From a virus, in the IMG/VR virus record IMGVR_UViG_3300003937_000051, positions 1 to 26,382 of that record: DNA of 26,382 nt; one strand, written 5' to 3'. The notes beneath the pieces were generated by a model. It saw nothing but the letters and a program-made list of their open reading frames with translations. It had not been told where the DNA came from and did not search any database. Positions 3,108 to 25,270 of this stretch are shown here, piece by piece (within the stretch, counting starts at the first letter, position 1; each line of letters starts with the position of its first letter). The position numbers were made by a program, and so were the translations under genes.

Positions 3108-3398
3108 TTAGCAGTATGAGTTAATTTTGTCCATTTGCTCTTTCCAATGTTTTGCAACATTTTTAGAAAACTGCTCTTCAGGATGATTAAATGAGTACCA
3201 AAGGTCTTGGATATTAATAGGACCAGCTCCACCAATCTTGTTTTCAATCCATTCACAGAACGCGTAGAGCGAGTCTGCTTCATCGATGTATAAACTCTCA
3301 TAAACATAATGATAACCCTCTGTAAAGCTTCCAGTGGTCTTAGCCCCCATTAAAAGGAGGTCTTTATTTCTTTCCGATAGATTTAATTTTGTATTCAT
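3108..3398 (-). CDS. Small early protein of unknown function (96 aa)
   Basis: This is the only minus-strand gene that I accept here. The product is soluble, mildly acidic and rich in Trp/Tyr/Phe, with no signal peptide, membrane segment or motif that I recognise. It is accepted because a 60-bp element lies just upstream of its start (3412-3471, reverse orientation), 59/60 identical to an element that precedes the gene at 18733 on the other strand. An ORF in another frame of the same strand (3089-3307) has less natural composition and does not start next to the element. Small early phage genes often target host functions, but nothing in this sequence says which. Confidence 0.6.
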   Translation of the reverse strand: MNTKLNLSERNKDLLLMGAKTTGSFTEGYHYVYESLYIDEADSLYAFCEWIENKIGGAGPINIQDLWYSFNHPEEQFSKNVAKHWKEQMDKINSYC

Positions 3399-3411
3399 AT
3401 ATTTTATCTTT

Positions 3412-3471
3412 TAATTACAGTACTAATATACGAAAAATAACTGACATAAAAAAATCTAGAGGCAATTATTT
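3412..3471 (-). promoter_or_regulatory. 60-bp conserved promoter-like element, copy B
   Basis: Read on the minus strand this is 59/60 identical to 18674-18733 on the plus strand; the only difference is A/G in the ATGTC[A/G]TT segment. It ends 13 bases before the ATG of the minus-strand gene. The core is AT-rich (TTTTTTTATG, then TATTTTTCGTATATTAG) with near matches to the Bacteroidetes -7 box TAnnTTTG. Conservation over a whole 60-bp block, immediately upstream of a gene in both places, argues for an early promoter recognised by host RNA polymerase. Confidence 0.65.
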
Positions 3472-3517
3472 TGCAAAAAAGTTATTAACATATTATGAAG
3501 AAACAAATTAAAAAAGA

Positions 3518-13355: not shown

Positions 13356-15467
13356 ATGAACAAATTTGAAGATTTCTTAAAAGAAGGTAAAAAGATACAA
13401 ATCAAAAGAAAGTATACTGAGAACCACCCTGCTAGAACTGTAGGTAAAACAGCCAATGTTAGAAATGAGATTTTAAAAGCTGTAAAAGATGGTGTAATCA
13501 CAGAAGAAGAGTTTACTAAAATTCTTTCTAAATTATCTGGTGACCATAAACAATGGAGAACTAGAAATACAAAATACTTTAATGTTTCTGAAGACGGTAT
13601 TAAACTTTCTAAATGGGGTCTAAGAATTCTTTCTGAATTAAACTCTGATGAAGAGGAAATGATTTTATCTGATGAGATTAGTGAAAAGATTAAAATTACT
13701 AAAGATGAATGGCCTTATGTTGAATTTAAAGATGGTGGTAAAAAACACAAAGTAGAATTTGATTACGAAGATGTTATTGATGACCACGGTAACGAGGGAC
13801 AAGATCAATACTGGGTTGGTAAAGATGAAGATGGCCAAGAATGGCAAATAGATGTTTATGCTGATTATAGAGGTGAAGTACAAGATATATTATATGATAC
13901 ACTTGTTAAAGAATCTAAAGTAAATGAAGCTAAAGAATCAGCCTGGGACAAATTAAATAGAATTGCTGACGAAGAATACGGTGAGTTCGGATTTGCAACT
14001 TTAGATGAAGACGATATGGCAGACCATATCGATATGAAAAAAGCTGATAAATTAGCTGATAAAGAATATGGCGAGTTTGGATTTACATCTTTAGGTGAAG
14101 ACGATATGAAAGAGCTTATTAATAATAATCCAAAATTGGTTAAAGAATCTGTAGTTAACGAAAAAGACGATGCTGGTGACCATTTAGATAAACTTGCTGA
14201 ATTAGTAGGTAAAGCTAGAGATTTCTTTGCAATCGGTAAAGAATTAAAAGCAGGTAAATACAAATACGACTATAGTGATAGTATGATGCCAATGTATACG
14301 ATAAAAGCAGATGGTTTTAAATTTGCAATACTTAACAAAAGATACGTTGACAGCGGCGATAGAGAAGTTGGAGAGATTGCTATTGGTCTAATGGAAAATA
14401 TTAAAACAGAAATAACAAATATGGAAACATTTTCAATACACGAATCATTTGCATCATTTACTGGAGCAAACGGATTCTTAAACGAAAAATTAGGAAGTCA
14501 GATTTTAGCTAGCATCTTAATGGGTAACAAAGAGGGTAAGTATGGTAAGAAAAATCTAGCTGCTTTAGCTGGAGGTTTTTATCAAATGACTAAAGTAGCT
14601 CTTGATAAAATTCAAGACGAAGACTTTATTTTAGATAATGACCCACAAAAAGCATTTAAAAACCACGGCGGTTCTAAGAATATTATTTTCTTTATTTCAG
14701 ATAATGAAAAAGAGAATCCATATTTACCAAGTAATCAAGGTTCATACGGAAGTTTAGCTACTATTCCAGGTGGCGGTATTCTATTAGCAGCAATGGGTGG
14801 TGATAGAGAATTTTATACTAATGACTGGTCTAGATATTCTAAGAATAGAGCTTGGAAAAAAGATGGTAGAAAAGGTGCTGAGGATCAAATCGGTGTAAAT
14901 AAGAAATATAGAGGTTGGGATGCTTCAGGTTTAAGTAATGGTAAAAGAATTGCAGAAGTTTCTGATAGAGTTATTATTGTAAACCTAGATCTAATTAGAC
15001 AAAAGTATTCTACTCAACAATTAAGAGATGCAAGAGCCTCTGCTAAAGCAGGTGCAATTGCGTTTAAATCTGATAAAGATTTTAAAGCTGATAACAAAAA
15101 CAGATACCACAAGATACTAGCTACTAAAGCAGCTTCATTACCAATTGATAAAATGGTTGCAGATGCTATTGACTTATTAGCAAGTCAAATTAAAGATGGT
15201 TTAGCTAGTGGTGATAAAACTAAATATGATGAAATCAAAATAGGTACGAACTCAAAAGGTAGAGAAGCTAAATTAAGAGATGCTTCTAACCACATGTCAA
15301 ATATTTTAGATAATTATTCAAGATATTGTGATTATATTAGACAGGGTGAAGAATCTAAAGAAAGATACGGACAAGCCGAGTCTTACTATGAAAGAGAATC
15401 TAAAAACTATGCTAAAGAAATTAAAGACCAAATCTCTAAGATTAAAGGATTTGATTACGCTTGGTAA
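13356..15467 (+). CDS. Large leader-bearing internal protein, two-part, function unknown
   Basis: This 703-residue protein begins M-N-K-F-E-D-F-L-K-E10, the closest match here to the T4 leader MKTYQEFIAE, residue for residue in length and pattern. Residues 20-180 are a Lys/Glu-rich alpha/beta region. Residues 199-251 hold a tandem repeat (see its own entry) flanked by LVKESKVNE191 and LVKESVVNE269. A second leader-like stretch, M356-E-T-F-S-I-H-E-S-F ending GFLNE377-K, begins the C-terminal half, which has Gly-rich loops (IPGGGILLAAMGGD) and a LRDARASAKAGAIAF helix. The parts may be cut apart during head maturation. No catalytic motif is recognised. An internal start at ATG 14421 is possible. 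Confidence 0.6.
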   Translation: MNKFEDFLKEGKKIQIKRKYTENHPARTVGKTANVRNEILKAVKDGVITEEEFTKILSKLSGDHKQWRTRNTKYFNVSEDGIKLSKWGLRILSELNSDEEEMILSDEISEKIKITKDEWPYVEFKDGGKKHKVEFDYEDVIDDHGNEGQDQYWVGKDEDGQEWQIDVYADYRGEVQDILYDTLVKESKVNEAKESAWDKLNRIADEEYGEFGFATLDEDDMADHIDMKKADKLADKEYGEFGFTSLGEDDMKELINNNPKLVKESVVNEKDDAGDHLDKLAELVGKARDFFAIGKELKAGKYKYDYSDSMMPMYTIKADGFKFAILNKRYVDSGDREVGEIAIGLMENIKTEITNMETFSIHESFASFTGANGFLNEKLGSQILASILMGNKEGKYGKKNLAALAGGFYQMTKVALDKIQDEDFILDNDPQKAFKNHGGSKNIIFFISDNEKENPYLPSNQGSYGSLATIPGGGILLAAMGGDREFYTNDWSRYSKNRAWKKDGRKGAEDQIGVNKKYRGWDASGLSNGKRIAEVSDRVIIVNLDLIRQKYSTQQLRDARASAKAGAIAFKSDKDFKADNKNRYHKILATKAASLPIDKMVADAIDLLASQIKDGLASGDKTKYDEIKIGTNSKGREAKLRDASNHMSNILDNYSRYCDYIRQGEESKERYGQAESYYERESKNYAKEIKDQISKIKGFDYAW
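13950..14108 (+). repeat. Tandem 30-residue protein repeat (2 copies)
   Basis: Residues 199-221 and 229-251 of the 703-aa protein repeat the pattern [KN]-x-x-[IL]-A-D-[EK]-E-Y-G-E-F-G-F-x-[TS]-L-x-E-D-D-M with a 30-residue period. The DNA has diverged at third positions, so the duplication is old and kept by protein selection. It may be a short binding module. Confidence 0.75.
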
Positions 15468-17524: not shown

Positions 17525-18679
17525 ATGATAGAATCATACTCAAATTACACGTTATTACTAGAGGCTCAACAGAGGCTTAAGATGAATGTACCTAAAGACG
17601 TTATCGATTTACATAAACTCTTTAAGAAAAATAAAAGAGAACTTTATGTAGTTGGTGGTGCAGTTAGGGATGCTATGCTTGGACAAAAACCAAAAGACTT
17701 TGATTTAGCTACTGATGCAAAACCAGAAGAAGTAATTAAGATCTTAAAATCTGGTGGTGTTCCAACCATTGGAGAAGTAGGTCAACAATTTGGAGTTGTA
17801 ATTGCTAAAACACCTAGCTTTGCTGAAGGTATGGAAATTGCAACATTTAGAGAAGATATTGGAAAGGGTCGTAGACCTGATGCCGTTAAATTCTCTACAA
17901 TAGACCAAGATGTTCTAAGAAGAGACTTGACAATTAATGCACTATTTTATGATATTGCAACTCAAGAAGTAGTCGATCTAGTTGGTGGTATTGCAGATAT
18001 TCAAAGTAATACTATTAGAACTGTCGGTAGAGCTCAAGAGAGATTTGAAGAAGATCCCCTAAGAAAACTAAGAGCCTTAAGATTTGCTGGTAGGACTGGA
18101 AGTAAATTAGAAAAGAATACTGCAGAAGCTATCATTAGTGATAATTCATTAGAAGATATTAGTCCAGAAAGAATTAGAGATGAATTTAAGAAATCTGTAA
18201 CTACTGCTAAATCACCAAAGAAATACTTGGAGATGGTAGAGTACTTTAAGATGTGGCCAGTAATGTTTCCTACTGTTTATGTTGATAAGAGATTCATAAA
18301 CTCTAAAGATTGGATAATTCAAATAGCAACTCTGTTTGGTGTTAATGAAAACGATCAAATAAAATCTCAATTAAATAGACTAACTTTTTCAAGTAAAGAA
18401 ATAGATTCTATTTTATTTCTTAAATCATTAATGACTCTAAAACCAGAGACTGTATTTGATATAAGTAAAAAGAGAGATATTGTAAAACTAGATAAAAAGA
18501 TTATCTTAGAGTTTGCAAAGCTAAATAAGTTAGACATTAAAATGATAAAGGCATTTATTAAATACAAGCCATCTACTAATGGCGGTGATGTCATGAAGCA
18601 GTTTGATGTGAAAGGACCTGCAATCGCAGATAAAATAAAAGAGATCGAAGCAGAAAAGTTTGCAAAACTTTACAAATAA
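17525..18679 (+). CDS. CCA-adding enzyme / poly(A) polymerase-type nucleotidyltransferase
   Basis: The enzyme adds CCA to tRNA 3' ends or A-tails to RNA; the sequence does not decide between them. Class II nucleotidyltransferase motifs are complete: VVGGAVRD (42-49), the metal-binding D-F-D (58-60), RRDLTINAL, and ERFEEDPLRKLRALRF for base selection. The length (384) is similar to bacterial CCA enzymes without an HD domain. The first 20 residues, M-I-E-S-Y-S-N-Y-T-L-L-L-E13-A, keep the spacing of the capsid leader with E13 and a Leu-x-Glu cleavage pattern. The fold itself needs nothing before about residue 25, and Met20 is an alternative start. The leader argues that the enzyme is packaged. 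Its stop lies inside the conserved 60-bp element that follows. Confidence 0.85.
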   Translation: MIESYSNYTLLLEAQQRLKMNVPKDVIDLHKLFKKNKRELYVVGGAVRDAMLGQKPKDFDLATDAKPEEVIKILKSGGVPTIGEVGQQFGVVIAKTPSFAEGMEIATFREDIGKGRRPDAVKFSTIDQDVLRRDLTINALFYDIATQEVVDLVGGIADIQSNTIRTVGRAQERFEEDPLRKLRALRFAGRTGSKLEKNTAEAIISDNSLEDISPERIRDEFKKSVTTAKSPKKYLEMVEYFKMWPVMFPTVYVDKRFINSKDWIIQIATLFGVNENDQIKSQLNRLTFSSKEIDSILFLKSLMTLKPETVFDISKKRDIVKLDKKIILEFAKLNKLDIKMIKAFIKYKPSTNGGDVMKQFDVKGPAIADKIKEIEAEKFAKLYK

Positions 18680-18733
18680 TTGCCTCTAGATTTTTTTATG
18701 TCAATTATTTTTCGTATATTAGTACTGTAATTA
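18674..18733 (+). promoter_or_regulatory. 60-bp conserved promoter-like element, copy A
   Basis: 59/60 identical to the reverse complement of 3412-3471. It overlaps the last codons of the upstream nucleotidyltransferase gene and ends at the ATG of the small gene at 18733. It starts the region of early/nucleotide genes. Near matches to a Bacteroidetes -7 box are TATTTTTC (18706-18713) and TATATTAG (18715-18722); I cannot fix the start point. Confidence 0.65.
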
Positions 18734-18873
18734 TGGACGAGAAGAGCAAAAAATTAAAAGAAGTAAACCTAACACTCCAAGAGTGGTTAGATGCTTTACG
18801 TATGCCTACTCCTGTAAGAAACAAAAAGAAATATAGACGTAAGAAGAAGCATAAAAATAAAGACGATGAGTAA
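18733..18873 (+). CDS. Small strongly basic protein (46 aa)
   Basis: The product is 46 residues with an LQEWLDALRMPTP segment and a C-terminal run of Lys/Arg/His (KKKYRRKKKHK). The ATG is at the 3' edge of the conserved 60-bp element and the stop overlaps the start of the phosphoesterase gene (ATGAGTAAA), a coupling that supports real translation. The basic tail suggests binding to RNA, DNA or an acidic host protein such as RNA polymerase. No family is recognised. It is likely one of the first proteins made from this promoter. Confidence 0.6.
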   Translation: MDEKSKKLKEVNLTLQEWLDALRMPTPVRNKKKYRRKKKHKNKDDE

Positions 18874-23315: not shown

Positions 23316-23780
23316 ATGGCGAACGCAGATAACAAATGTGCAGATTTGGAAGTCCAAGACTTTCATTCAGAAGCAGAAGACACATTGGGTCTTATTTACA
23401 ACAAACAAGTAGAATTACAAAAGCGTTTAGGCTTCGACTTTACAGGTTGGAACTTAAAGCAAATTGCAGATTTCTGGTGTGTAAATAAACACGCAATGTC
23501 AGATGAATTAAATGAAATGTTTGATGCCCTTGGAGGTATTAACGACGGTATTGCCTCAGGTGCATGGAAATACTGGAAGAGTACTAATGCTCAAGCAGCT
23601 GATATGAAGATTGAAGATCTTTCTAAAGCTGATAAATTAGAATTATTTTATGAATGGATTGATGGATTGCATTTCTATATGAACTTTGCAATTTCTATTG
23701 GTATGACGAGTAAGGATATTGTTAACCTGTACATGGCGAAGAACGCAGAGAACCATGACCGTCAAAACCGAGGATATTAA
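23316..23780 (+). CDS. 56: dCTP/dUTP pyrophosphatase, T4 gp56 type
   Basis: The enzyme hydrolyses dCTP and dUTP to monophosphates, which in T4 keeps ordinary cytosine out of phage DNA and supplies dCMP/dUMP for hydroxymethylation. The 154-residue protein (T4 gp56: 171) is an all-alpha NTP pyrophosphatase. The ExxE helix is SDELNEMFDAL (E64, E67), a second acidic helix is EWIDGLHFYMNF, and the end NLYMAKNAENHDRQNRGY closely matches T4's LYYLKNKENFARQDNGY; the middle W-K-x-W-K segment also matches. A stop-start overlap (TAATG) couples it to gene 43. Its presence beside modification-type genes supports a modified genome. Confidence 0.88.
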   Translation: MANADNKCADLEVQDFHSEAEDTLGLIYNKQVELQKRLGFDFTGWNLKQIADFWCVNKHAMSDELNEMFDALGGINDGIASGAWKYWKSTNAQAADMKIEDLSKADKLELFYEWIDGLHFYMNFAISIGMTSKDIVNLYMAKNAENHDRQNRGY

Positions 23781-25192
23781 TGCTATTAGATATTGAACAA
23801 AAAGAGAATGAGTTAATTGTATCTTACTTTAATAAAGAAGGTACAGTATCATTTAAACGCTATCCGGTAAAGCAGTTTCAAAATTGGGTCGTAACGAAAG
23901 ATGATGACAAGTGGAGAGACCCAAACATGAAAAACTGGGATGGCAGAACTTTAAAGAAGTCTAGATCCAGGACTTTTAATAAGTTTTCATTACTTTATTT
24001 TATGGATTCTCTTTCTCAAGAAGATCGAGATGAGATCTATGAGTTCAATATGCCTCGCACCTATTTTGTTGATATTGAGACTGAGATTGTAGATGGTTTT
24101 CCAAAACCTGAAGAAGCTAAGTCTCGTATATTAACATTCTCAATTATCACCCCAGAGCGTAAAGCTATCGTTCTTGGTCTAGAAGATTTGTCTGCAGAAC
24201 AAATTAAAAAGATCGAAGATGATACTAATGCTCATTTTAAAACAGGTGATTATGACCAGGACTGGGAATTTAGTTATTACAAGTTCAAAGATGAATACAA
24301 TATGTTGTATACATTCTTGCACAAGTTTTTACCTAAGTTTCCTATGATGACTGGTTGGAACTTTATCAACTATGACTGGCAATATATTGTCAACAGATGT
24401 AAAAGACTACAAATCGATTTAACCGATGTTGCTATCACAGGAGCATTAGATAAAAAAGATTCTAGACCTTTACACATGGGTATTTTAGACTACATGCAAT
24501 TGTACGATAAATATGATAGATCTGGACACGTAAAAGAATCAAACGCATTAGCATTTGTATCTGGCGCAGTCTTAGATGGTATAAGTAAGATTAATTATAG
24601 TGGTTCATTACAAGACCTTTATGAAAACGATTTTCAAAAATATGTTTTCTATAATGTAATTGACTCGGTATTAGTTTACTATATTGACCAGAAGCTTAGG
24701 TCAATGGAAGTTCTGCTAACGTTAGCAACTATTACTAAAATGCCACTATATAAAGCTGCCTCACCGGTGGCTATTACTGAATCTTTAATCGCTCGTAAGT
24801 TAGCCGAACAGGATAAACGTATCGGTACCGAGTGGGACAGAGAAGATGGTAAAAAAGATGCAAAGTACGCTGGAGCCTTTGTTAAAGAACCTTTATCCGG
24901 ATATTATAGTGGAGTAAGCGCATTTGACTTTGCGTCACTATATCCATCTGTGATGAGGCAATTTAATATATCTCCGGATTCGTTCATCGAAATTGTTCCT
25001 GAAGCGGAAGTTAAGGAACGTAGAAAAGACCAAGATGTTATAGTTTGTCAGAATGGAGTTGTTTACTCAAAAGAAGAAAGCGTTCTTAAAAAGATCTTAG
25101 GAGATTTATATGCTCAAAGAAAAGATTACAAGAAAACTTCTTATGATTATTACACTAAAGCTGATGAATTACAAAAAAAATTTAGTCTATAA
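23780..25192 (+). CDS. 43: DNA polymerase gp43, N-terminal half (split or broken gene)
   Basis: The 470-residue product is the first half of a family B polymerase (T4 gp43: 898 aa). It has the complete 3'-5' exonuclease domain: Exo I FVDIETE (D98, E100), Exo II GWNFINYDW, Exo III YNVIDSVLVYY. It continues into the palm with motif A DFASLYPSVMR (383-393) and stops after a Lys/Tyr-rich fingers segment (KTSYDYYTKADEL). Motif B (K-x6-Y-G) and motif C (D-T-D) are absent. No continuation exists in any frame in the 158 bases before nrdB, so this is not a simple frameshift. Split gp43A/gp43B genes with a break in the fingers are known in some Aeromonas T4-like phages; the second half is expected outside this window. 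A broken, inactive gene is the alternative. Confidence 0.85.
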   Translation: MLLDIEQKENELIVSYFNKEGTVSFKRYPVKQFQNWVVTKDDDKWRDPNMKNWDGRTLKKSRSRTFNKFSLLYFMDSLSQEDRDEIYEFNMPRTYFVDIETEIVDGFPKPEEAKSRILTFSIITPERKAIVLGLEDLSAEQIKKIEDDTNAHFKTGDYDQDWEFSYYKFKDEYNMLYTFLHKFLPKFPMMTGWNFINYDWQYIVNRCKRLQIDLTDVAITGALDKKDSRPLHMGILDYMQLYDKYDRSGHVKESNALAFVSGAVLDGISKINYSGSLQDLYENDFQKYVFYNVIDSVLVYYIDQKLRSMEVLLTLATITKMPLYKAASPVAITESLIARKLAEQDKRIGTEWDREDGKKDAKYAGAFVKEPLSGYYSGVSAFDFASLYPSVMRQFNISPDSFIEIVPEAEVKERRKDQDVIVCQNGVVYSKEESVLKKILGDLYAQRKDYKKTSYDYYTKADELQKKFSL

Positions 25193-25201
25193 ATCAGAAG
25201 T

Positions 25202-25249
25202 TTATTAGCACTTGCGGGATATATAAATCACTAGCAGCGCTGCTAATAA
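25202..25249. repeat. Nested inverted repeats between split gp43 and nrdB
   Basis: TTATTAGCA (25202-25210) and TGCTAATAA (25241-25249) are perfect complements, and the 3' part also belongs to a perfect 14-bp palindrome TAGCAGCGCTGCTA (25232-25245). The two pairings exclude each other. A GATATATAA box (25218-25226) lies in the loop of the larger structure. Confidence 0.6.
25218..25226 (+). promoter_or_regulatory. GATATATAA motif upstream of nrdB
   Basis: Exact copy of the candidate late-promoter box, about 125 bases before the nrdB ATG and upstream of a hairpin terminator, so a transcript from here would have to pass that terminator. Confidence 0.25.
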
Positions 25250-25270
25250 TTCAGATTACAGATTAGATTA

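Follow-up and report, generated by a model that had tools for sequence, protein, structure and literature searches.

The question raised by this locus is why 60 bp of viral DNA should occur twice, in inverted orientation and almost unchanged, within one short fragment. The fragment analyzed here (hereafter the window) is a 26,382-bp IMG/VR sequence, and all contigs compared with it are likewise fragments. The initial annotation reported that positions 3412-3471 (minus strand) and 18674-18733 (plus strand) share 59 of 60 bases, and this match held. A repeat search of the window returned the pair as 60 nt, 98% complementary, with 15,202 nt between the copies. It was the longest inverted repeat of the window, the runner-up being 30 nt at 73%. 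A self-search of the window gave the second copy an E value of 7.8e-26, and the last 19 bases (TATATTAGTACTGTAATTA) yielded 3 matches (≤3 mismatches) versus 0.02 expected, exactly at both copies. Chance alone would not produce such a pair, and its existence is confirmed. As also described, a small ORF follows each copy: 46 aa from 18733, and 96 aa from 3398 on the minus strand. Among relatives, the conserved unit measured approximately 65 bp rather than 60, corresponding to 18671-18735 (copy 1, plus strand) and 3474-3410 (copy 2, minus strand).

The proposed search for additional copies revealed many in relatives. Using a 65-column profile (about 75 bits), we identified 196 element copies among related contigs of uncultured viruses totalling 1.44 Mb. 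The lowest accepted score was 19.7 bits, while reversed sequence always scored -28 or lower. The copies were gathered partly by pattern, which inflates the apparent conservation of the core. Up to 6 copies were present per contig (e.g. 6 in an 82-kb contig, 5 in a 101-kb contig, and 2 in the 26-kb window). The exact 52-bp core was present in 16 other viral stretches and a degenerate core in 103. The core pattern had no match in bacterial and archaeal genome contigs sampled at one per species, and a host or prophage origin was rejected on this basis. Searches with half-elements retrieved 95 stretches with the left half alone and 90 with the right half alone. All of the left-half matches listed carried the TATATT box. 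Of 51 distinct right-half matches, 49 carried a TTTTTTTATGTCA box (≤2 mismatches). The halves therefore travel together. At 3 mismatches, there were no element matches in the nearest huge phages LR756500 (L106), LR756501, LR756502, or Lak-C1, and a second pattern had none in LR756500 or Tenacibaculum phage pT24. For LR756500, these two pattern searches, and not the profile scan, are the basis of the negative result. By these sequence comparisons, the 60-bp pair are two members of a dispersed element family. We found no description of this element in open-licence papers.

Copies were consistently placed with respect to genes, with 186 of the 196 immediately preceding a co-oriented ORF that begins with ATG. 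The downstream ORFs formed 52 protein families, 47 of which had 200 aa or fewer; BLAST clustering merged two lysine-rich and possibly non-homologous proteins into one of these (family 56). Most cargo genes were small and without recognized function. Those with domains encoded an ECF-like sigma factor (Sigma70_r2, E 2.5e-10), a PNKP-type phosphatase, a 5'-3' exonuclease, and a UvdE endonuclease. Further cargo in relatives included a homologue of the tRNA nucleotidyltransferase of the window. In the window itself, copy 1 (18671..18735, +) stands ahead of the 46-aa gene (18733..18873, +), which is 91% conserved, occupies the same slot in relatives, and had no Pfam match. This copy overlaps both neighbours. 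Its left arm includes the stop codon (18677-18679) of the gene upstream, and the final base of the original 60 is the A of the downstream ATG. Copy 2 (3410..3474, -) precedes the 96-aa gene (3108..3398, -), the sole minus-strand gene between the RuvC-like gene and gp32, with homologues at this slot in 25 loci.

The right part of the element reads as a Bacteroidetes-type promoter, judging by its -7 box and the spacing to the start. Among 124 distinct copies, the -7 box was TATATTAG in 107 and TATATTTG in 9. The Flavobacterium johnsoniae -7 consensus is TANNTTTG, located 4-5 nt from the start (PMC6847099). It was exact in 9 of the 124 distinct copies, and the prevalent TATATTAG is one mismatch from it. 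The predicted promoter would consist of this box and the initiation sequence TACTGTAATTA, and its reader would most likely be the main RNA polymerase of the host. Transcription would begin approximately 5 nt past the box, leaving a short A-rich leader to the small gene. In the window, the -7 boxes lie at 18715..18722 (+) and 3423..3430 (-), with putative starts at approximately 18727 and 3418 and leaders of about 6 and 20 nt, respectively. The family as a whole had a median leader of 21 nt (IQR 20-24), assuming a start 4 nt past the box. Promoter strength and early expression would likewise be predictions.

Similarity to the sigma ABfr promoter (TTTG / TANNTTTG) extends to the -7 box, the predicted start spacing, and an A-rich leader without an obvious Shine-Dalgarno sequence. 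The element differs by a T to A change at -6 in most copies, by the missing TTTG at -33 (where a T run is followed by ATGTCA), and by the additional, strict TTTTTTTATGTCA. We also considered an ECF-sigma promoter. Although CGTA precedes the -7 box, inspection alone indicated that an ECF-type -35 box is missing at the usual distance, and this reading was rejected. ECF-like sigma factors appear as cargo, with the gene located behind an element at approximately 12176 in L073 and also in L019, L021, L040, L060, L078, L079, L084, and L092. The copies at these genes mostly have TACAG, not TACTG, after the -7 box, and their leaders are longer (31-34 nt). The initial annotation had described the element as promoter-like and had argued that its conservation exceeds what a promoter box needs. 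Both points were borne out, as a promoter box alone is insufficient for this degree of conservation.

The TTTTTTTATGTCA box is located at 18691..18703 (+) in copy 1, about -36 to -24 of the predicted start, and at 3442..3454 (-) in copy 2. It was exact in 104 of the 124 distinct copies, partly by search design. Its strictness is unexplained by host sigma recognition, and it could be an activator site. We regard it as possible, though on balance doubtful, that the element is an activator-dependent phage promoter similar to T4 middle promoters, which swap the -35 box for a MotA box at -30 (PMC2988021). Here, a host-type -7 box would be combined with TTTTTTTATGTCA as a phage-specific box near -30, which a phage factor would bind or a sigma factor encoded by the phage would read, and the arms of the inverted repeat would be secondary. 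This would account for TTTTTTTATGTCA being more constant than anything else outside the -7 region, for the occurrence of TTTTNNNATGTC at the equivalent position in MA9V-2, a very distant phage, and for the absence of TTTG at -33. It would also agree with the presence of encoded sigma-like proteins (one ECF-like behind an element, two annotated in MA9V-2). However, the -33 element of F. johnsoniae is also weak (PMC6847099), so the missing TTTG is not diagnostic, and the conservation of TTTTTTTATGTCA is inflated by the search pattern. An activator leaves unexplained the tandem-limited covariation of the arms described below. Like the element, T4 early and middle promoters are phage promoter classes whose consensus extends past the host boxes (PMC2988021), but they have other boxes, serve another host polymerase, and contain no hairpin.

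The inverted repeat is formed by the left part of the element and the stretch preceding the -7 box. The left arm AAAATAANTG is complementary to the right arm CANTTATTTT, with T residues after it. In copy 1, the left arm is CAAATAATTG (18673..18682, +; 9 nt pairing), and the right arm with its T run is CAATTATTTTT (18702..18712, +). Across all distinct copies, the folding energy was better than with randomly dealt left arms (z -5.2). As related sequences can mimic covariation, copies were split by the direction of the upstream gene. Direction was taken from simple ORF calls, and tandem copies were defined as those with a co-directional gene ending within 40 nt.

Covariation of the arms was confined to tandem copies (z -7.9, reached by 0 of 500 shuffles) and not seen in divergent copies (z +1.5). 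Restricting the analysis to one copy per downstream family gave a mean z of -6.1 for tandem and +1.1 for divergent copies. Stems below -8 kcal/mol were formed by 34% of 62 tandem copies versus 0 of 58 divergent copies (distinct copies), and the median stem energies were -5.65 and -2.5 kcal/mol, respectively. The difference had a Mann-Whitney p of 8e-5 for distinct copies and 0.003 at the family level. At one orthologous slot, that of the MSNILTFVL gene, L032, L011, and L066 differed by compensatory changes of both partners, C-G having become G-C and A-T having become T-A. As divergent copies have the same ancestry and no signal, selection for pairing where upstream RNA arrives is the simplest reading. 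The tandem set combines a stem, a T run, and maintained pairing, as expected of intrinsic terminators, while the divergent copies do not. The tandem-limited covariation is in keeping with a promoter into which an intrinsic terminator has been merged.

The same data bear on a promoter with a symmetric operator, in which the inverted repeat would be a dimer site and not a hairpin. This explanation would suit a repeat that adjoins the promoter and has a strictly conserved sequence between its arms. Nevertheless, the arms change sequence yet stay complementary, and do so in tandem context only, whereas a protein site should keep its sequence independent of neighbour gene direction. We therefore consider such an operator improbable. 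A more limited version of the operator role suggested in the initial annotation survives, as the TTTTTTTATGTCA box is stricter than host sigma recognition should need and may serve in this capacity.

For the merged promoter and terminator, we propose that the left arm, the conserved loop, and the right arm with its T run would fold in RNA arriving from an upstream co-directional gene, forming an intrinsic terminator. The 3' end of the upstream RNA would fall about 15-19 nt short of the new start. Termination would close the upstream unit and spare the promoter from overrun. Next to a divergent upstream gene, the hairpin would not be maintained, and the element would be a promoter only. Termination at the two window copies is doubtful: both have weak stems (-5.4, and -6.3 with G-U pairs), the first value being that of copy 1, and the gene upstream of copy 2 is divergent. 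Copy 1 is the tandem case, overlapping the 3' end of a co-directional gene of the tRNA nucleotidyltransferase / poly(A) polymerase family (17525..18679, +). Among the roles beyond a promoter box that had been suggested, a context-dependent terminator hairpin is the best supported. An RNA leader is disfavoured, with the element almost wholly upstream of the predicted start and an Rfam search of the window empty; a known RNA family was rejected from the same search.

An inversion of about 15 kb between the two copies, also suggested previously, found no support among relatives. At the slot of copy 2, between the RuvC-like gene and gp32, the element had the same orientation with respect to both genes in 26 of 26 relatives. 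These loci were fetched for carrying the element, so the count informs orientation and not presence. On the copy 1 side, the neighbours were collinear in all five relatives holding that slot (L043, L045, L086, L101, and L152). All five also have another element before the tRNA nucleotidyltransferase gene, and the window does not.

Rather than inversion, the slots bear the marks of small genes exchanged between element copies. In L089, the copy 2 slot holds an unrelated 101-aa gene instead of the usual one. In L152, an additional 74-aa gene (MSTELK...) lies between the element and the 46-aa gene of the copy 1 slot. Upstream of the sigma-factor gene lies a third slot, in which two elements flank MSTELK..., MIREKQ..., or MSSTQL..., or no clear gene. 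The genes upstream of this slot are orthologous, with 67-94% identity across seven loci. The MIREKQ... gene also occurs elsewhere, at a divergent site in L103. Near-identical copies would allow recombination to swap small genes between them, and homologous recombination is the presumed mechanism. The recombination role raised in the initial annotation can thus be retained for gene exchange, and inversion of the pair is unsupported.

Near-identical copies in both orientations, with cargo exchanged between them, would also be expected if the element chiefly served DNA rearrangement, as an inversion or site-specific recombination site or as a small mobile element. We consider this highly unlikely. 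The copies keep one orientation and a near-fixed distance ahead of start codons, inversion at the copy 2 slot was seen in 0 of 26 relatives, and homologous recombination suffices for gene exchange. Separately, AATTGTTAATAACTTT was observed directly upstream of many tandem copies serving different genes (L011, L032, L040, L066, L079, L084, and others), and a similar TGTTAATAACTTTTTTG lies ahead of copy 2 (window 3472-3500, -). These recurring flanks hint that the exchanged cassette may extend past 65 bp.

The replication proteins of the window are closest to those of the 462-kb uncultured phage LR756500 (gp32, 51%; DNA polymerase, 48% identity). Next are larger uncultured huge phages (polymerase, 34-37%), followed by Prevotella Lak phages. 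Lak phages and the largest genomes of the huge-phage study form one clade, and genomes >634 kb were predicted to replicate in Bacteroidetes, like Lak phages (PMC7162821). As the replication proteins resemble those of these Bacteroidetes-linked phages (PMC7162821), the window phage likely has a Bacteroidetes host.

Cultured phages were reached with a 72-nt consensus, which matched the Chryseobacterium phages MA9V-2 (E 5e-8) and MA9V-1 (E 9e-5). In MA9V-2, 30 profile candidates scored >2 (control maximum -0.4), two of which are one sequence found at both record ends. All were on the plus strand, where nearly all MA9V-2 genes are located. In about ten candidates, AAAATAGTTGCC or a variant forms the 3' arm of a near-perfect, terminator-type hairpin (e.g. 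GGCAACTATTTTTAAAAATAGTTGCCTTTTT), such that the hairpin is built with the left box of the element. In the others, a separate hairpin ends just upstream. Two distinct copies contain TTCCCAAATG...CGTTTGGGAA within the element. Relatives in MA9V-2 were detectable for only 4 of 29 window proteins, at 24-33% identity, and the design therefore extends across phages that are very far apart. Promoters and terminators go unmentioned in the MA9V-1 paper (PMC10537231). In MA9V-2 we also observed a TnpB-family gene flanked by two separate polymerase genes (149314-155537).

Our data suggest that the 65-bp copies are most likely composite promoter-terminator cassettes of a large, probably Bacteroidetes-infecting phage, similar to PeSLs (promoter early stem-loops) but from another lineage. 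PeSLs are described as composite promoter-terminator motifs of T4-like myoviruses (Arbiol 2010, Comeau 2014; PMC4503421). With PeSLs as outlined there, the element shares many near-identical intergenic copies (up to 6 in the 82-kb contig, 2 in the window), a predicted promoter joined to a putative stem-loop terminator, and small-gene exchange points. The last is illustrated by L152 and by the sigma-factor slot with its three alternative genes or none. Regarding a possible T4-like myovirus as the carrier, the window phage, known from a partial genome, encodes gp32-, tail-tube-, and DNA polymerase-like proteins. Compared to the PeSLs of that account, the element belongs to another phage lineage and presumably another host phylum, has a Bacteroidetes-type -7 box and a strict TTTTTTTATGTCA inside the hairpin, and keeps its hairpin solely where a co-directional gene lies upstream. 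Class I intergenic repeats of halovirus HF2 (56-58 bp) are promoters by reporter assay and primer extension (PMC8707807). They are similarly dispersed, near-identical repeats of approximately 58 bp before genes, with positions kept among relatives, but have an archaeal TATA-type promoter, and the portion of PMC8707807 consulted describes no terminator role.

A broader proposal, which we offer only tentatively, is a dual-use cassette of very distant large Bacteroidetes phages. Here, TTTTTTTATGTCA would recruit a conserved transcription factor of the phage, retention of the terminator would depend on the direction of the adjacent gene, and the copies would act as the main exchange points for small takeover genes, among them the ECF-like sigma factor of the phage itself. 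The element provides a searchable marker of one putative transcription class in large uncultured phages and suggests a route for small-gene exchange among them. As its small cargo genes are mostly without known function, the marker would flag probable takeover or counter-defence genes. The contrast of tandem with divergent copies amounts to a natural experiment and indicates that the hairpin is under selection only where an upstream transcript arrives. MA9V-2 is cultured, so these predictions are testable now.

Other sequence features of the window were also recorded. The plus strand carries all 7 occurrences of ATATATAA; with 4.35 expected on both strands, this number is not significant. Five of these sites (1870, 3519, 7960, 12918, and 17514, +) precede, by no more than about 45 nt, gene starts that are without the 60-bp element. 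ATATATAA could be a second, late-type promoter box. A 78-nt repeat (13957-14124; two copies 78% alike, 90 nt apart) lies inside the 703-aa ORF at 13356-15467 and, by its sequence, is an internal duplication of that ORF. The family B DNA polymerase gene (23780-25192), with a ribonucleotide reductase gene after it, has just 470 aa, covering the exonuclease and the beginning of the polymerase domain. Between these two genes, a palindrome around GCAGCGCTGC (25221-25256) is perhaps a terminator.
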